Source: Polaromonas sp. 39-63-25
GTDB taxonomy: Bacteria; Pseudomonadota; Gammaproteobacteria; Burkholderiales; Burkholderiaceae_C
Direction: 5' to 3'
DNA: 46,032 bases
Assembly (NCBI RefSeq): GCF_002278925.1
Contig: NZ_NCJH01000025.1
Coordinates: 1 to 46,032 of the forward strand
The position numbers and the translations under genes are program-made. Below, one piece after another: positions 557 through 7,007 of the stretch. The notes under the pieces are model-generated. The model saw nothing but the letters and a program-made list of their open reading frames with translations. It searched no databases and was not told where the DNA came from. The stretch's first letter is position 1; every line of letters starts with the position of its first letter.

Positions 557-799
557 TCAGTCAGGCTTGAGGTTTTGCGTGTCCGGGCTGGTTGCCTCAC
601 CCGCATAGTTGCGCCAGCGACCCATCGCCAGTCGCATGGTGATCAGCTGGTTTTCAAATTGCGGGCAGGCCTTGCAGGCCAGCAGGTGCAGGCGCAAGGC
701 AACGGTATCGGACAGGCGCAAGGCGCGGTCCTCTCGGGCCACCAGCAATGCCGCGGCTTGCTTGCAGGTGCGCATCAGGGGAAGGGACTGGATTTTCAT
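557..799 (-). CDS. Zinc-finger-type anti-sigma factor (80 aa)
   Basis: A small soluble protein directly downstream of the ECF sigma gene (9-base gap), as expected for its anti-sigma partner. It carries the ZAS-like pattern His38-x3-Cys42-x2-Cys45, plus Cys12, and has no membrane segment, so it would be a cytoplasmic zinc-dependent anti-sigma factor rather than a membrane-anchored one. Loss of zinc, or oxidation or metal attack at the cysteines, would release the sigma factor. Role is inferred from motif and position. No clear Shine-Dalgarno site is visible, so translation may be coupled to the sigma gene. Confidence 0.75.
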   Translation of the reverse strand: MKIQSLPLMRTCKQAAALLVAREDRALRLSDTVALRLHLLACKACPQFENQLITMRLAMGRWRNYAGEATSPDTQNLKPD

Positions 800-808
800 G
801 ACGGCCGT

Positions 809-1375
809 TCAGTGGGCTTGTTGGCCAAACCAGTGAATGGCCAGGCATTCGCGCAGACGCAGGCGGGCACGGTGAAGCTGGACATACAGATTGGTCGGCG
901 TGAGCGAGAGTTCCTTACAGACTTCTTCGCAGGACAGCTCCAGCCATTCGCGCATCAGGAACAAACGCCCCAGGGCCGGGGGCAAGCGCTCGACGCAGGC
1001 ATCGAGGACCTTGAAAAACTGGCTTTGCGCCAGGGTTTGCTGTGGATCGCCCCAGTCACCGGGCGGGCTGGCGAAGTGGCCGTCGGCCTGGAAGGCGAGC
1101 TTGTCCAGTTCGTCGGCTTCGTCGTCGGCCCCATGGTCGGGAAGCGAGACCTCCCGGGCGTGGCTGCGGATCAGGTCGATGACCTTGTGCTTGAGAATTC
1201 CGACCAGCCAGGTTTTGAGTTGCGACCGGTTGCCGAATGATTGCGGCTTGGACAGTGCCGCCAGCAGGGTTTCCGAGACGGCGTCTTCCGCCCAGGCATC
1301 GTTGCGCAGCTGCAGCCTCGCAAAACGCATGAGGTAGACCCGGTGTTCAACCAGTTGCTCTTCAAAGGTGGCCAT
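809..1375 (-). CDS. ECF-family RNA polymerase sigma factor
   Basis: 188 aa from the ATG at 1375; a GTG at 1396 would add seven residues, and neither start has a strong ribosome site. The N-terminal half has the region-2 helix pattern (YLMRFARLQL, then AEDAVSETLLAAL and the TWLVGILKHKVIDLIR stretch), and the C-terminal half has region 4 (LPPALGRLFLMREWLELSCEEVCKEL, ending in the DNA-reading helix TNLYVQLHRARLRLRECL). It is divergent from the tlpA-bufABC-doxX genes, and two copies of a spaced promoter motif precede those genes, so it probably drives them. This layout matches ECF sigma factors linked to DUF2282/DUF692 operons that respond to copper or thiol stress. Confidence 0.9.
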   Translation of the reverse strand: MATFEEQLVEHRVYLMRFARLQLRNDAWAEDAVSETLLAALSKPQSFGNRSQLKTWLVGILKHKVIDLIRSHAREVSLPDHGADDEADELDKLAFQADGHFASPPGDWGDPQQTLAQSQFFKVLDACVERLPPALGRLFLMREWLELSCEEVCKELSLTPTNLYVQLHRARLRLRECLAIHWFGQQAH

Positions 1376-1435
1376 GGGTGGCAAGTCTAGCCGCACCGCA
1401 GCGCGGGTGTGCAGAAAAATAATGTGGGCAGGCGC

Positions 1436-1463
1436 GTAAGGATTCCGGCTGCGCGGCGACCAA
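1436..1463 (+). promoter_or_regulatory. Candidate ECF-dependent promoter of tlpA
   Basis: GTAAG at 1436-1440 and GACCAA at 1458-1463, separated by 17 bases that include CCGGC (1445-1449). The same two boxes with the same 17-base spacing and the same CCGGC block recur at 2155-2182 before bufA. GTAA-type -35 and CGAC/AGAC-type -10 elements are typical of ECF sigma factors. It ends 54 bases before the tlpA start. Use by the neighbouring sigma factor is inference. Confidence 0.6.
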
Positions 1464-1517
1464 ATGATTTGAAGTCATTTGCATCGCCTGTAGCTGCAAC
1501 CCACCAAGGACACCACC

Positions 1518-2120
1518 ATGGACACCGCTCATCGCGCATCACCCCCCGCTGGCCCTCACAGCGTTTCCCGTTCCGGCCGGACGTGTTCTGGTCTTGCCGT
1601 GGCCGCCCTCATCGCGCTGTGGATGGCTGCACCCTCGCAGGCGCAAACACCGCCGTCCTCCATGAAGGCGGAAAGTGTTGCTGCCGCGCGAGTGGCCGCA
1701 GCAGCGCCGCACATTGAAGGCAAAACGGTGGAGGGCAAACCCTTCAGGCTGTCTTCGCTCAAGGGCAAGGTGGTGCTGGTGTTGTACTGGTCCACCGGCT
1801 GCGCGGTGTGTCGCGACAAGATGCCCGAGCTGCGGACCAACTACGAAGGCTGGGCCGGCAAACCCTTCGAGCTGGTGGCCGTCAGCACCGACGCACGCAT
1901 GCAGGACGTGCTGGACTATGAAGCCATCATCTCGCGCACGGTGTCGACCCGGCAGCGGTTTGTCCAGCTCTGGGCCGGCGACAGCAGCTACCGCGACAAC
2001 CTGGGCCAACACGCGCAGCTGCCCGCGGGCTACCTGGTCGACAAGTCCGGAAAAATTGTCGAGCGTTACCTGGGACGGATTCCGCCGGAAGCCTGGGACC
2101 GCATTGCCGACCTGCTGTAG
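1518..2120 (+). CDS. TlpA-like thioredoxin-fold protein, exported
   Basis: 200 aa. A hydrophobic stretch at about residues 24-42 ending in PSQAQ looks like a signal peptide or membrane anchor. The thioredoxin fold follows from about residue 62, with active-site motif W-S-T-G-C95-A-V-C98. The cis-Pro region (QLPAGYLVDKSGKIVERYLG) lies near the C-terminus. It would act as a periplasmic disulfide reductase or cysteine-protecting protein. It sits between the ECF sigma pair and bufA, each side carrying the same promoter motif, which suggests it services cysteines of the BufA precursor or other periplasmic thiols under the same stress. The partner is inferred. Confidence 0.85.
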   Translation: MDTAHRASPPAGPHSVSRSGRTCSGLAVAALIALWMAAPSQAQTPPSSMKAESVAAARVAAAAPHIEGKTVEGKPFRLSSLKGKVVLVLYWSTGCAVCRDKMPELRTNYEGWAGKPFELVAVSTDARMQDVLDYEAIISRTVSTRQRFVQLWAGDSSYRDNLGQHAQLPAGYLVDKSGKIVERYLGRIPPEAWDRIADLL

Positions 2121-2154
2121 CCGCCAGCATTTTTTTCACGGTGAGAAAAAGCCT

Positions 2155-2182
2155 GTAAGAAAGCCGGCAGTCGCCAGACCAA
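2155..2182 (+). promoter_or_regulatory. Candidate ECF-dependent promoter of bufA
   Basis: GTAAG at 2155-2159 and GACCAA at 2177-2182 with a 17-base spacer containing CCGGC (2164-2168). It matches the element before tlpA box for box. Having its own promoter would allow bufA to be expressed more strongly than tlpA. Confidence 0.6.
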
Positions 2183-2187
2183 GCTTT

Positions 2188-2227
2188 AACCAGACAGAGA
2201 AACAACACGGGTCTGGTTGGGATTTTT
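2188..2227 (+). terminator. Leader hairpin before bufA, possible attenuator
   Basis: AACCAGAC (2188-2195) pairs with GTCTGGTT (2211-2218) across a 15-base loop, followed by GGGATTTTT. The upstream CCAGACC (2174-2180), inside the promoter motif, is a second copy that could also pair with GGTCTGG (2210-2216). It could end tlpA transcripts, attenuate bufA, or simply structure the 5' leader. The T-run is short, so termination is uncertain. Confidence 0.4.
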
Positions 2228-2256
2228 AACCTGTTCGAATCAACTGGAGATTTCAA

Positions 2257-2562
2257 ATGAACCAACGCGCCCTGATTGCTGCAGCTGCAGCTTCCCTGCT
2301 GTCCACCATGCTGATGGCCACACCCGCTGTCGCCCAGGAAAAAGAAAAATGTTACGGCATCGCCAAGGCGGGCCAGAACGATTGCGCCAACCTGGCCGGT
2401 ACCCATTCCTGCGCCGGTCAGTCCAAGCTCAGTGACGATGCCGGTGAATGGAAATACGTGGCCAAAGGCACTTGCGCCGGCATGAAAGGCATGACGGTCG
2501 ACCAGGCGAAGATGAAAGGCAAGGCCATGATGGACAAGCCGATGATGGACAAGAAGAGCTGA
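2257..2562 (+). CDS. bufA: Bufferin-type precursor peptide (DUF2282)
   Basis: 101 aa. The signal peptide is residues 1-26 or so (ending TPAVA-Q). The mature part has four cysteines, C32, C43, C52 and C73, in the DUF2282 arrangement ([22 protein letters not shown]). DUF2282 proteins with a DUF692 neighbour are the bufferins, secreted copper-binding peptides whose cysteines are modified by the MNIO enzyme. The tail after C73 is unusual: seven methionines and many lysines in 28 residues (MKGM, MKGKAMM, PMM), which suggests an extra soft-metal site. The start is set by CTGGAGA seven bases upstream of the ATG. First gene of the bufABC-doxX operon, with its own promoter motif. Confidence 0.88.
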
Positions 2563-2596
2563 TGGCTTGTTGACTGTTCCCATCCGGGCGAAGCAG

Positions 2597-2612
2597 CCTG
2601 TCCCTGGACAGG
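2597..2612 (+). repeat. Hairpin between bufA and bufB
   Basis: CCTGTCC-CT-GGACAGG, a perfect 7-bp inverted repeat in the 65-base gap between precursor and enzyme genes. No T-run follows. Such a structure could stabilise the bufA 3' end or reduce read-through, giving more peptide than enzyme, which fits the poor ribosome site and GTG start of bufB. Confidence 0.5.
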
Positions 2613-2627
2613 CGTCGCCTTCTGGCT

Positions 2628-3515
2628 GTGACTGATTCCACTTTTTTCACCACGGGCATAGGTTGGCGGCATCCGCACTATGCCTGCCTGCTCGAGGCAC
2701 CACCGGAGCTGGACTTCCTGGAAGTCCATTCCGAAAACTTTTTTGCACGCGGCGGCGCGGCGCTCGCTGTCCTGCATGAGGCCCGCCAGCGCTACCCGAT
2801 CAGCCTGCATGGCGTCGGGCTGGCACTGGGCTCCGCAGTTGGGATTGATCCCTGGCACCTGGAACAGCTCGCTGCGCTGGTCGAGCGCATCGAGCCGGTT
2901 CGCGTCTCGGACCATGCCTCGTTTGCGCGCGGACCGTGGGGGGGCGCCACCGTGCATGCGGCAGATCTGCTGCCGCTTGCCTTTCACCGGCAGTCGCTGG
3001 ATGTGTTGTGCGCCAATGTGCAGCAGGTGCAGGACCGGCTGAAGCGCCGCCTGCTGGTCGAAAACCTGTCCGCCTATGTGCACTTCAACACCTCCGACAT
3101 GAGTGAACCCGATTTTCTTTCGGCACTCGCCAGCCGCAGCGGCTGCGGGCTGCTGGTCGACGTCAACAATATTTATGTGAACGCATGCAACGAGCGGCTG
3201 GCGGGCAACACGGACGACCCGGTGCGCGCCTGCATGGCGTGGCTGGACCAGCTACCGCCGCACGCGGTGGCGGAGCTGCACCTCGCGGGCCACAAGGACT
3301 GTGGTGACATCGTCATCGATGACCACGGCAGCCGCGTGTGCGACGAGGTCTGGCAGCTTTACCGGCATGCGCTGGCGCGTTTTGGCAAGGCGCCGGGCGG
3401 CCTGGCCACCCTCGTGGAGTGGGATACCGACATTCCACCGCTGCAGGTCTTGCTCGACGAAGCGTCCAGCGCCCGCGCGCTGCAAGCCCTGGCGGGCAGC
3501 GCGGTGGCAGCATGA
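2628..3515 (+). CDS. bufB: MNIO-family (DUF692) peptide-modifying enzyme
   Basis: 295 aa TIM-barrel enzyme of the multinuclear non-heme iron oxidative (MNIO) family. The expected metal-ligand stretches are all present: LEVHSENFF (about 31-39), [11 protein letters not shown] with H61, [12 protein letters not shown] (about 91-101), [13 protein letters not shown] with E145, [11 protein letters not shown] with D178 and N180, ELHLAGH with H218 and H222, and VEWDTD (about 263-268). Family members use mixed-valence iron and oxygen to convert cysteines of a partner peptide into heterocycles. The substrate here should be BufA. GTG start with a weak ribosome site; the 3' end overlaps bufC by ATGA. Confidence 0.92.
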
Positions 3516-4339
3516 GGCCCGACAGCTTCCAGCAGGAGCAGCAGGCCCTGCTGCAGCTGGTGCTGGGCGCGACCGATGGCGCCGGCCTGGCACGCTGGCT
3601 GTCTGCCGGGGATGCCGCCCAGGCGCGGCGCTCGCAACGCGGCCTGCAAGCCTACCGCGCGAACGGCCAGGCGCTGGCGGAACGTGCACTGGCCGCCGCC
3701 TACCCGGTGCTGGTGCAATTGGTCGGCGAGGAAAATTTTGTCGCGCTGGCGCGCCACTTCTGGGCCATCCATCCGCCCCTTTACGGCGACATGGCTTGCT
3801 GGGGGGACCTGCTTGGCGGCTTCATCGGGGCGTCCGCCCAGCTGGCTGATGAGCCCTACCTCGCCGATGTCGCGCATCTGGAGTGGCGCATGCACCTGGC
3901 CGGCAGCGCGGCCGATGTGCCGCCCGATTCGGCGTCGTTTGCATGGCTGGCCACGGAGGATCCGGCAGGGATCACGCTCACCCTGGGCGCGGGCGTGGCC
4001 TTGCTGGCGAGCCCTTATCCGGTGGCCAGCATCGTTACTGCCCACCTCACGGGCAGTCCCAGCCTGCAACAGGCCGGACAAAGGCTGGCGGAGGGCTGTG
4101 CTGAACACGTGCTGGTCTGGCGCCAGGGCTTGCGGCCCCGCGTGCGCGTGAGCACGGGGACTGAACACCGGCTGCTCGAGGCGCTGATGGCCGGCCGGCC
4201 CCTGCTCGACGCCCTGGAGGCGTCGGAGGATGCTCCGGATGCCGTGCCCTTCGATTTCAATGCCTGGCTGGGCGAGGCGGTGCAGACCGGCCTGGTCATG
4301 GGCGTGCATTCATTGCCAACCACCGAAGGAAACACATGA
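3512..4339 (+). CDS. bufC: DUF2063 partner protein of the MNIO enzyme
   Basis: 275 aa, starting at the ATGA overlap with bufB. The N-terminal half (to about residue 95) fits the DUF2063 putative DNA-binding domain: [39 protein letters not shown], followed by [15 protein letters not shown]. The C-terminal half is a less conserved alpha/beta region. In MNIO systems this protein partners the enzyme and probably presents the precursor peptide, so a DNA-binding name would be misleading. Its end overlaps the doxX start by ATGA, so the two are translationally coupled. Confidence 0.85.
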
Positions 4340-4797
4340 TGATGACAAGTAATGGTCGTACGGCCTGGCTGGCGCGCGGCCTGAACGCGTGGGGCGGGCT
4401 GACCCGGACCCTCAATACACTGCAGCCGGCGGCGGCCTTGCTGGCGCGCCTGTACATTGCGCAGGTCTTTTTTCTGTCCGGCCTGACCAAGCTGCGCGAC
4501 TGGGACACCACCGTGGCCCTGTTCACCGACGAGTACCACGTGCCCCTGTTGCCCCCTGCGGCGGCGGCCCTCATGGGGACGGCCGGTGAACTGGTGCTGC
4601 CCGTGCTGCTGGTGCTGGGCCTGTTCGTGGTCAATGCCGTCGCGGTGATCTCGCTCAGCGAGATCGCGCCGGCCGCCCTGCAGCAGCATGTGTTCTGGGG
4701 CACGCTGCTGGCGGGGCTGGCCATTTACGGTGCGGGGCCGTGGTCGCTGGACCGCTGGCTGGCGCCGGCCCTGCAGCGGGTTCGCCGAACTTCATAA
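4336..4797 (+). CDS. DoxX-family inner-membrane protein
   Basis: 153 aa with four likely membrane segments, roughly at residues 36-53, 74-92, 96-112 and 116-133. The signature ARLYIAQVFFLSGLTKLRDWDTTVALF is typical of DoxX. Ribosome site GAAGGA lies before an ATG that overlaps the bufC stop. A DoxX protein is the usual last member of bufferin operons, where it probably links the system to membrane redox or quinone chemistry; that job is not proven. The TAA stop codon overlaps the first bases of a dispersed repeat. Confidence 0.85.
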   Translation: MMMTSNGRTAWLARGLNAWGGLTRTLNTLQPAAALLARLYIAQVFFLSGLTKLRDWDTTVALFTDEYHVPLLPPAAAALMGTAGELVLPVLLVLGLFVVNAVAVISLSEIAPAALQQHVFWGTLLAGLAIYGAGPWSLDRWLAPALQRVRRTS

Positions 4798-6236: not shown

Positions 6237-6244
6237 GGCGGCTT

Positions 6245-6375
6245 GTCATTGGGGAGTAGCCTCCTTCCCTCCTGCCGTTACGGCGGGGGCGAGAGGGGTT
6301 TGCGTCAACAGACTTGTCCGTCCTGCCACAGGGACGACATGGCGCAAACGGTTCAGACTTGGCGAGACCTTTGAC
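6245..6375 (+). promoter_or_regulatory. yybP-ykoY (manganese) riboswitch aptamer
   Basis: Both conserved ends of the motif are present: GGGGAGTAGCC (6251-6261) and GCGAGACCTTTGAC (6362-6375). P1 forms from GTCATTGG (6245-6252) with CCTTTGAC (6368-6375), two T-T mismatches inside. The helices between include CGTCCTGCCACAGGGACG. It lies directly before a TMEM165-type manganese exporter gene. The 3' strand of P1 is also the 5' strand of the following terminator, so binding of Mn2+ should favour read-through (an ON switch). Confidence 0.85.
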
Positions 6376-6424
6376 TGCACAGCCTCCGTTCAGGCCGGGG
6401 ATGTCGTGCAGTCATGGGTTTTTT
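6372..6424 (+). terminator. Riboswitch-controlled intrinsic terminator
   Basis: TGACTGCAC (6372-6380) pairs with GTGCAGTCA (6406-6414), followed by TGGGTTTTTT. TGAC at 6372-6375 is shared with riboswitch P1, making the two structures mutually exclusive. Confidence 0.75.
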
Positions 6425-6440
6425 CCGGCCGGAGTCATTC

Positions 6441-7007
6441 ATGGAAGCTTTTCTTATTTCCACCGGCATCGTCGCCCTCGCCGAAATGGGCGACAAGACA
6501 CAACTTCTCGCCCTCGTCCTCGCTGCCCGTTTTCGCAAACCCTGGCCCATCGTGGCGGGCATCTTCGTCGCCACCGTCGCCAACCATGCCATGGCCGGAG
6601 CCCTGGGCGCCTGGTTGACCACCCTGATCAGCCCGCAAACCATGCGCTGGATCCTCGGCGTGTCCTTCCTCGCCATGGCGGGCTGGATGCTGATTCCGGA
6701 CAAGCTCGACGACGACGCGGCCGACGGGCGCCTGCCGCGCTTCGGCGTGTTCGGCACCACCGCCATGCTGTTTTTCCTGGCCGAGATGGGCGACAAGACG
6801 CAGATTGCGACCGTGATGCTGGCCGCCCGTTATGACGCCTGGTTCGGCGTGGTCGCCGGCACCACCCTGGGCATGATGCTGGCCAACGCCCCCGTGGTCT
6901 GGCTGGGCGCCCGTGTTACGCAGCTGGTGCCGCTGCGTGTGGTGCACGTCGTGTCGGCGCTCATTTTTGCCGGCCTGGGGCTGGCGGCCTTGCTGATCAA
7001 GGCTTGA
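6441..7007 (+). CDS. TMEM165/GDT1 (UPF0016) family manganese exporter
   Basis: 188 aa, six predicted membrane helices in two repeats. Each repeat carries the family signature E-x-G-D-K-T: EMGDKTQLLAL near residue 13 and EMGDKTQIATV near residue 117, the acidic residues lining the cation path. Bacterial relatives such as MneA and MntX export Mn2+. The ATG at 6441 is chosen because it precedes the first conserved repeat and has GGAG upstream; an ATG at 6414 lies inside the terminator stem. Regulation by the manganese riboswitch just upstream supports the substrate. Confidence 0.9.
   Translation: MEAFLISTGIVALAEMGDKTQLLALVLAARFRKPWPIVAGIFVATVANHAMAGALGAWLTTLISPQTMRWILGVSFLAMAGWMLIPDKLDDDAADGRLPRFGVFGTTAMLFFLAEMGDKTQIATVMLAARYDAWFGVVAGTTLGMMLANAPVVWLGARVTQLVPLRVVHVVSALIFAGLGLAALLIKA

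Follow-up and report, generated by a model that had tools for sequence, protein, structure and literature searches.

A TlpA-like thioredoxin, apparently co-regulated, in a Buf1-type bufferin cluster of Polaromonas

Introduction

The bufferins, which were named recently, form a large family. The question at stake is how a copper peptide rich in thiols can go on working after its export into the oxidising periplasm. One locus of Polaromonas sp. 39-63-25, a bacterium of soil and water, raises this question in concrete form. Within the 46,032 nucleotides (nt) analysed here (the window, one whole contig, NZ_NCJH01000025.1, of a genome of 4.83 Mb), positions 557-4797 carry bufferin genes (bufA, bufB, bufC and doxX), the genes of an extracytoplasmic function (ECF) sigma factor and of an anti-sigma factor of the zinc-binding anti-sigma (ZAS) type and, between the two groups, a tlpA-like gene for a putative exported thioredoxin. 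A sequence-only reading of this DNA had named these seven genes, and all seven lie where it placed them. Judging by its sequence, the locus belongs to the bufferin (captophorin) clusters of the Buf1 type and is in that respect an additional example of a known system; TlpA, a real addition to that system, looks on the same footing like a conserved, co-regulated component of the cluster in its lineage. The reading that we prefer, and to which we would give a probability of roughly 0.6, is that of a Buf1 system with a co-regulated periplasmic TlpA reductase, which has BufA among its substrates or beneficiaries. On this reading, the peptide or its neighbouring proteins would have to stay chemically reduced in order to work; that TlpA acts on BufA directly is a plausible hypothesis.

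Linkage of tlpA to the bufferin genes

Scanning named genomes with the TlpA protein yielded 27 loci, the neighbours of which were sought with the proteins of the window as queries. BufB stands beside tlpA in 26 of these loci, BufA and the ECF sigma factor in 25 each, the anti-sigma factor and DoxX in 24 each. The sole named locus without BufB is L030, whose contig stops 298 nt past tlpA; contig ends also account for the gaps of BufA and DoxX in L030, of the anti-sigma factor in L012 and of DoxX in L018, and the remaining gaps are those of L024 (without BufA, ECF and anti-sigma), L027 (without ECF and anti-sigma) and L029 (without a DoxX match). The loci are kin by descent and not independent of each other, L024 and L041 being one contig, and the closest named relatives of the cluster are the Polaromonas records L010 and L011 (85-99% protein identity). 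Among 200 genomes of the GTDB family, 35 contain TlpA-like matches at 1e-20, 39 in total; 22 of the 39 lie at most 3 kb from a DUF2282 gene (21 of the 25 best-scoring, 1 of the 14 weakest), the DUF2282 positions for this count having been entered only for genomes with a TlpA match. Of 300 genomes sampled from the order (nine from the family of the window), three have matches with E <1e-30, all three belonging to that family; the best match outside it reaches 1.8e-19.

Records of Polaromonas, Ramlibacter, Hydrogenophaga and Curvibacter contain tlpA in the cluster. One locus (L056) has tlpA positioned after doxX. At L024/L041, tlpA is kept with bufB, bufC and doxX in a place with no local bufA or sigma gene, and the bufA of that genome is found on another contig, without the remaining cluster genes in the 9 kb fetched. 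The bufA-less L024 gave rise to the idea that TlpA might itself be a substrate of the MNIO enzyme, which we rejected, as its only invariant Cys residues are the CxxC pair and as G333 (same contig as L024) carries a separate bufA elsewhere. Some loci show peculiarities of their own: in L051 bufA follows tlpA, the next match is an ammonium transporter, and bufB does not adjoin, MNIO genes being present elsewhere in the genome; apparent frameshifts affect tlpA of Polaromonas eurypsychrophila (L036 6001-6452), in which, as read, the CxxC is absent, and bufB of Polaromonas sp. P2-4 (L021 6572-8161); and L021 contains two tandem bufA genes, the second of which is preceded by a separate sigma motif (6917-6944).

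Distance matrices of TlpA correlate with those of BufA, BufB, BufC and ECF at r 0.63-0.77, a value which none of 500 permutations reaches, and the core genes correlate with each other at r 0.60-0.86 (omitting L041, L036 and L021 as well as all rows that were too short or contained a stop). As shared descent alone gives such a correlation, it is not evidence of interaction; what it shows, for the proteins compared, is joint inheritance of TlpA with the cluster.

Promoter motifs and the probable insertion of tlpA

ECF-type promoter motifs precede both tlpA (1436-1463, + strand, GTAAGGA-N15-GACCAA) and bufA (2155-2182, +, GTAAGAA-N15-GACCAA), with GTAAGRA-N15-GACYAA as their common form. Counting was done with a strict form, GTAA[GT][AG]A-N12..17-GACNA, which was derived from the very loci used for counting: it occurs upstream of bufA (in the tlpA-bufA intergenic region) in 34 of 44 cases and upstream of tlpA in 25 of 39, with zero occurrences in 100 shuffled sets. 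In a longer upstream stretch, it is found in 26 of the 39 tlpA loci with an ECF match in the fetched DNA and in 1 of the 18 without (one-sided Fisher p 1e-5), these 18 including six distant paralogues, L061-L066. The 761,196 both-strand bases of the tlpA loci contain 98 strict sites and none of the reversed form; read by hand, 61 of the 98 lie before bufA or tlpA, one before the second bufA of L021, 34 in ecf and two in tlpA, a third site overlapping tlpA being the L030 promoter at the tlpA start.

The ecf-internal sites in the tlpA loci (34, L036 included) are on the coding strand; in the set fetched for TlpA-less clusters, such a site is seen in 6 of 20 regions. The copies in ecf overlap conserved codons and may not be promoters; constraint on the codons would account for them, as would a genuine promoter within the gene. 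In the window such a copy lies inside the ecf coding sequence at 891-918 (-), upstream of the anti-sigma gene. We do not claim it as the anti-sigma promoter, as it overlaps the sigma region 4 codons.

A terminator-like stem with a T-run stands at the end of tlpA (2113-2129, +), which is weak evidence alone (5 in the region against 2.5 +/- 1.6 in shuffles), and 136 nt separate tlpA from bufA. These sequence features suggest a single regulon with two transcription units, one of them tlpA, the other bufABC-doxX. The placement of TlpA inside the regulon, as proposed from the sequence alone, is borne out by the linkage of its orthologues and by the motifs before tlpA and bufA; within it, tlpA looks like a separate transcription unit and not like a member of the buf operon.

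How tlpA came to lie here can be approached through 19 DUF2282 clusters without TlpA, which were hand-picked from the 200-genome list and are not a random sample; no TlpA match was obtained in any of the 19 as fetched. A homologous ECF/anti-sigma pair lies next door in nine of them, and the other ten have a distant ECF match or none. Eight of the nine show, by eye, a single GTGTAAGKA...CGAC site before bufA (in the ninth the bufA start is misplaced), none of these sites being in the strict form. Since these sister clusters have a single ECF-type site at bufA, tlpA was probably inserted, and the simplest history suggested by the sequences is that it entered between the old divergent promoter and bufA, which then gained a second promoter. 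Such an origin would also suit a mere positional passenger that, in a single lineage, landed between bufA and the divergent sigma promoter, and so would the restriction of strong matches to the family of the window in the 300-genome sample of the order. A passenger would hardly have been kept in all four genera named above with invariant catalytic residues, a promoter motif of its own and correlated distances, and we regard this explanation as very unlikely.

The TlpA protein

The tlpA-like gene occupies 1518-2120 (+; PF00578, TlpA/AhpC-TSA, 53.3 bits, cut-off 26), and its active-site codons (CAVC, 1800-1811, +) were read from the sequence as part of WSTGC-AV-C, downstream of a Sec signal peptide that is cleavable by eye. 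Both Cys residues of the CxxC and the cis-Pro are invariant in all 37 aligned orthologues (hand-chosen from 57 loci), which also have a characteristic C-terminal GRIPxEAWDxIADLL. The AlphaFold2 model (predicted local distance difference test 87.7, predicted template-modelling score 0.80) finds ResA-type oxidoreductases as best Foldseek hits (4NMU, 3KCM, 2F9S and 1ST9, E 1.9e-11 to 2.6e-10), and TlpA 1JFU as well as the TlpA-ScoI complex 4TXO are on the same list. Sequence and model together indicate an exported thioredoxin fold of the TlpA/ResA type with CxxC and cis-Pro. Because the protein stays under the cut-offs of the NCBIfam models for TlpA (NF047696, 53.5 of 230 bits), ResA (NF002854, 52.4 of 170) and DsbE (TIGR00385, 24.8 of 123.15), it is, by this measure, a subfamily of its own.

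Peroxiredoxins have the motif P-x3-(S/T)-x2-C. Assignment of TlpA to this group was rejected, as the motif lacks its Pro here and both CxxC Cys are invariant (by eye). A likely electron source, on sequence grounds, is a DsbD-type protein: DsbD_TM is matched three times in the genome, the open frames concerned having 610, 610 and 749 codons. Two of these matches (G000:C39:2023-2667 and G000:C42:2023-2667) are nearly equal, which points to a recent duplication or an assembly duplicate. DoxX, considered as an electron donor to TlpA via a Cys relay, was discarded, the protein encoded at 4336-4797 having no Cys in its sequence.

With ResA and TlpA types as its nearest solved folds, the protein might alternatively serve copper-site or cytochrome c assembly, in the manner of ScoI/CoxB or CcmG, and be induced as copper excess disturbs these. 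A precedent exists in Bradyrhizobium TlpA, which reduces the copper chaperone ScoI and COX II (PMC6696091) and is likewise a periplasmic TlpA-fold reductase, but membrane-anchored, in contrast to the signal peptide seen here. The linkage to bufferin genes, as judged with the proteins of the window as queries, argues the other way, and six further TlpA-like matches in the genome could do such work, so that we consider an assembly role quite unlikely.

The sigma factor, its partner and other candidate targets

The ECF sigma gene (809-1396, -) belongs to the TIGR02943/PRK12520 family (PRK12520, 305.9 bits, cut-off 255; TIGR02943, 222.8 bits, cut-off 162.2). Its presumed partner, a soluble anti-sigma factor of the ZAS type with 80 amino acids (557-799, -), matches NF052368 antisigmaE with 59.1 bits (cut-off 50), stays slightly below the cut-off of Pfam PF13490 zf-HC2 (20.6 against 22.2 bits) and has no transmembrane segment by eye. 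Its ligand pattern is C12 followed by H38-x3-C42-x2-C45; as this spacing equals that reported for MseR (C4/H30/C34/C37) and RsrA (C11/H37/C41/C44) (PMC2893595), we assign it to the RsrA/MseR type. By analogy, zinc binding and redox-dependent release of the sigma factor are putative properties of this protein.

A search of the whole genome for GTAAGRA-N13..17-GACYAA gave six matches, and the reversed control none: the sites lie at tlpA, at bufA, inside ecf, at msrP, at a methylthioadenosine (MTA) phosphorylase gene and at an open reading frame (ORF) with FG-GAP. The msrP site (L074 3996-4023, -) is 32 nt before the MsrP gene, which forms with the following MsrQ gene the stretch 2251-3963 (-; 478.5 bits, cut-off 207, for MsrP and 185.1 bits, cut-off 130, for MsrQ). 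A further site (L075 2500-2527, +) lies 103 nt before the MTA phosphorylase gene, after which comes an ArsS radical S-adenosylmethionine gene, and this pair is, from its position, a possible arsenic- or sulfur-related member of the regulon. The match at the start of the FG-GAP ORF is probably due to chance; among the six, the site on C19 is not claimed, being too near its ORF start. Taken by these motifs, the sigma factor looks like the head of a small regulon comprising the bufferin, a periplasmic thiol reductase and, in some genomes, a methionine-sulfoxide reductase.

Such a regulon may equally well be described without any contact between TlpA and BufA: TlpA would then be a general envelope thiol-repair enzyme of a metal and oxidant regulon, with only the sigma factor in common with the bufferin (and with MsrPQ in some genomes). 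This fits the occurrence of the same motif before msrP here and in seven other TlpA genomes, an anti-sigma factor of the RsrA/MseR type and the existence of clusters with the same sigma type that lack TlpA. It also fits reports from other bacteria: Haemophilus influenzae RpoE2 drives a DoxX/DUF2063 set together with msrAB and mtsZ in the response to hypochlorous acid (PMC7907618), and in Neisseria msrAB is under sigma-E control, its product PilB starting with a TlpA-fold domain that is reduced by the N-terminal domain of DsbD (PMC6210582). General repair explains less well why orthologues of TlpA with identities from about 50% upwards sit mostly in the bufferin cluster itself (the 21 of the best 25 mentioned above), and why tlpA stays with bufBC-doxX in the genome whose bufA is elsewhere, which mere co-regulation need not bring about. 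We take this explanation seriously and place it somewhat short of even odds.

The bufferin genes and the bufA leader

That the locus is a bufferin-type system with an ECF/ZAS pair of its own, as the sequence-only reading had it, is supported by the family-model matches of its genes. The ATGA overlaps that this reading described are real only for bufB/bufC (3512) and bufC/doxX (4336), bufA and bufB being separated by 65 nt. The bufA gene (2257-2562, +) encodes a DUF2282 precursor with four Cys (PF10048, 80.8 bits, cut-off 22.4), a Sec-type signal peptide judged by eye and a Met-rich C-terminal tail, 7 of the 28 residues after the last Cys being Met; its 26.5 bits against the BufA2 family model NF050166 (cut-off 60) are below cut-off, as expected for Buf1. 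Exactly four Cys are present in all 44 BufA adjoining tlpA, 24 of which have at least four Met in the tail, and ten BufA not adjoining tlpA have 1-4 Met there. BufB (2628-3515, +, GTG start) is a DUF692 protein (PF05114, 310.8 bits, cut-off 25) that passes the model for MNIO family bufferin maturases (NF050167, 316.1 bits, cut-off 310), and its conserved His/Asp/Glu/Asn stretches align with 3BWW; some of these conserved residues we take to be the metal ligands. The DUF2063 domain of the partner protein BufC (3512-4339, +) is matched with 52.7 bits (PF09836, cut-off 27.2), the HvfC equivalog model below its cut-off (25.8 of 142 bits), and the hvfX-like membrane protein DoxX (4336-4797, +) behaves similarly (PF07681, 49 bits, cut-off 23.6; HvfX equivalog NF050144, 41.1 bits, cut-off 80). 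By kinship with Buf1, thiooxazoles on the central Cys of BufA and binding of copper are predicted.

The leader of bufA contains a conserved hairpin (2187-2219, +; arms 2187-2195 and 2211-2219, in the window TAACCAGAC / GTCTGGTTG) directly after the -10 element, recognised by pair counting with the stem chosen by eye. With 40 distinct leaders aligned by sequence alone, 267 of 342 cells are paired, compared with 19-41% when one arm is slid, and two-sided changes comprise A-U, C-G and U-A at one pair and G-C and C-G at the next. The median folding z of the leaders is -2.5, with 27 of 40 below -1.5; the leader of the window itself, taken over a slightly different stretch, folds no better than shuffles (z -0.56), and no Rfam family matches the hairpin at gathering score. 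The structure may stabilise a short, strongly expressed messenger RNA or regulate it. An alternative CAAC/TAAC repeat downstream of the hairpin, seen in 21 of 42 leaders (mean 0.06 in 50 shuffled sets), could, from its sequence, pair with the 3' arm instead.

Beyond the cluster, a Mn2+ riboswitch (6239-6439, +; RF00080, 77.1 bits, cut-off 45) leads into an ORF at 6414-7007, which by eye resembles a small exporter of the UPF0016 type.

A possible mechanism and the points against it

In Buf1, the central Cys are reported to be modified to thiooxazoles (PMC12452194), and for thiooxazole peptides alkylatable thiols have been described together with an aggregation that the authors ascribe to possible disulfides (PMC13097082). 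With this literature, the following course of events can be proposed. A thiophilic metal (copper, perhaps gold or cadmium) or a thiol oxidant would disturb the Cys/Zn site of the anti-sigma factor and free the sigma factor, which, by the evidence of the matching motifs, would drive tlpA, bufABC-doxX and here msrPQ. BufBC would form thiooxazoles from the two central Cys of BufA before the peptide is exported by Sec, and copper would then be bound in the periplasm, both steps being modelled on published bufferins. TlpA, recharged by a DsbD-type protein, would reduce periplasmic thiols that copper or oxidants have converted to disulfides; its targets would most probably include BufA, either at the outer Cys pair or at oxidised thiooxazole thiols, whereby copper binding by BufA would be kept or restored. 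MsrPQ, where co-regulated, would repair methionines, perhaps including those of the Met-rich BufA tail, a link which is only an idea.

A bolder version makes TlpA a dedicated bufferin reductase: with DsbD electrons it would bring oxidised thiooxazole thiols of BufA, or its outer Cys pair, back to the copper-binding state, and MsrPQ would restore the methionines of the tail, so that the peptide, once exported, could serve again and again, and the folded bufA leader RNA would form a second layer of control. This version we consider rather doubtful.

Several observations weigh against our preferred reading of TlpA as a reductase with BufA among its substrates or beneficiaries. A part of TlpA in peptide function or maturation, as the sequence-only reading suggested, is possible; as to maturation, BufBC would, from the literature and by inference, act in the cytoplasm ahead of Sec export, so that a periplasmic reductase would come into play after that step. 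In the Buf1 product the outer Cys pair is reported to form a disulfide (PMC12452194), and its reduction might therefore do harm. TlpA within 3 kb is found for a minority (22) of the 117 of 200 family genomes that have DUF2282, and because nine of the 19 TlpA-less clusters keep a homologous ECF/ZAS pair, a bufferin system can, to judge from these clusters, manage without TlpA. The strict motif is absent from 13 of 39 ECF-adjacent tlpA regions and from 10 of 44 bufA regions, misses which include close variants such as GTAAGGT in L010, and a third of all its sites lie inside ecf. Where msrP has the motif, general envelope thiol and Met repair fits equally; among 24 TlpA genomes and 20 genomes listed without a DUF2282 match, of which 21 and 17 had msrP, a strict site precedes msrP in 8 of 21 (own genome included) and 2 of 17 (one-sided Fisher p 0.07), which is frequent for so rare a motif and, in these samples, no clean association with TlpA. 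Concerning the trigger, oxidative stimuli left sigma-E expression unchanged in meningococci, which have the same type of anti-sigma factor (PMC2893595), and for this reason a redox trigger of the sigma factor is not given. For Cupriavidus metallidurans, it is reported that no proof of the initiation of gig by RpoQ was obtained (PMC10304878).

Relation to known systems

Caulobacter CC3254-3257 and Cupriavidus gigPABT likewise combine a DUF2282 precursor (in gig the small periplasmic GigP), an MNIO enzyme, a DUF2063 partner and DoxX, and have a linked ECF sigma factor and metal induction (PMC12452194, PMC10304878, PMC3511200). Compared with these clusters, the locus described here additionally has tlpA, preceded by a separate promoter motif, and its anti-sigma factor is soluble and of the ZAS type, whereas that of Caulobacter belongs to a membrane type (six transmembrane segments are listed) and Cupriavidus RsqA is predicted to be membrane-bound. 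Caulobacter sigma-F controls two bufferin-type gene sets and YedY, so that there, too, bufferin-type genes and a gene of the MsrP family are under one ECF factor; TlpA is not in its printed regulon table, and its promoter (GTAACC-N16-CGAA) resembles the -35 GTAAGRA and -10 GACYAA found here (PMC3511200). Neisseria sigma-E/MseR and Haemophilus RpoE2/HrsE share with our locus a DoxX-containing operon of the captophorin type, a ZAS-type anti-sigma factor and a periplasmic Met-sulfoxide reductase (PMC2893595, PMC7907618), and the Neisseria sigma-E promoter (-35 GTMAGBWTT, -10 CGTCTAAH) is also similar to the motif. The precursors differ, being of the EGKCG type in Neisseria and Haemophilus (PMC13097082) and DUF2282 here, and PilB has its TlpA-fold domain fused to MsrAB, in contrast to the free-standing TlpA and MsrPQ of Polaromonas.

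Among the papers listed in our literature searches, none links TlpA with a DUF2282 cluster. The main text of PMC12452194 has no mention of TlpA, thioredoxin or redoxin, though one in its supplement is possible, and the survey presented there gives additional conserved genes in extremely low proportions. What appears new is the pairing of Buf1 with a soluble ZAS anti-sigma factor and, more than this, the free-standing TlpA, the bufferin cluster itself being ordinary. As read from its motifs, the regulon would extend the cases of Caulobacter sigma-F (bufferin and YedY/MsrP) and of Neisseria and Haemophilus (captophorin operon and MsrAB).

Implications

That several genera keep a reductase gene next to those of the peptide, and that this gene has a sigma motif of its own, makes it directly testable what keeps such a peptide functional after export. 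Through the motif, bufferins here would also be connected with the repair of Met-sulfoxide in the periplasm, which recalls Caulobacter, Neisseria and Haemophilus, and this tie supports viewing captophorins as part of an envelope regulon for the repair of metal and oxidant damage.

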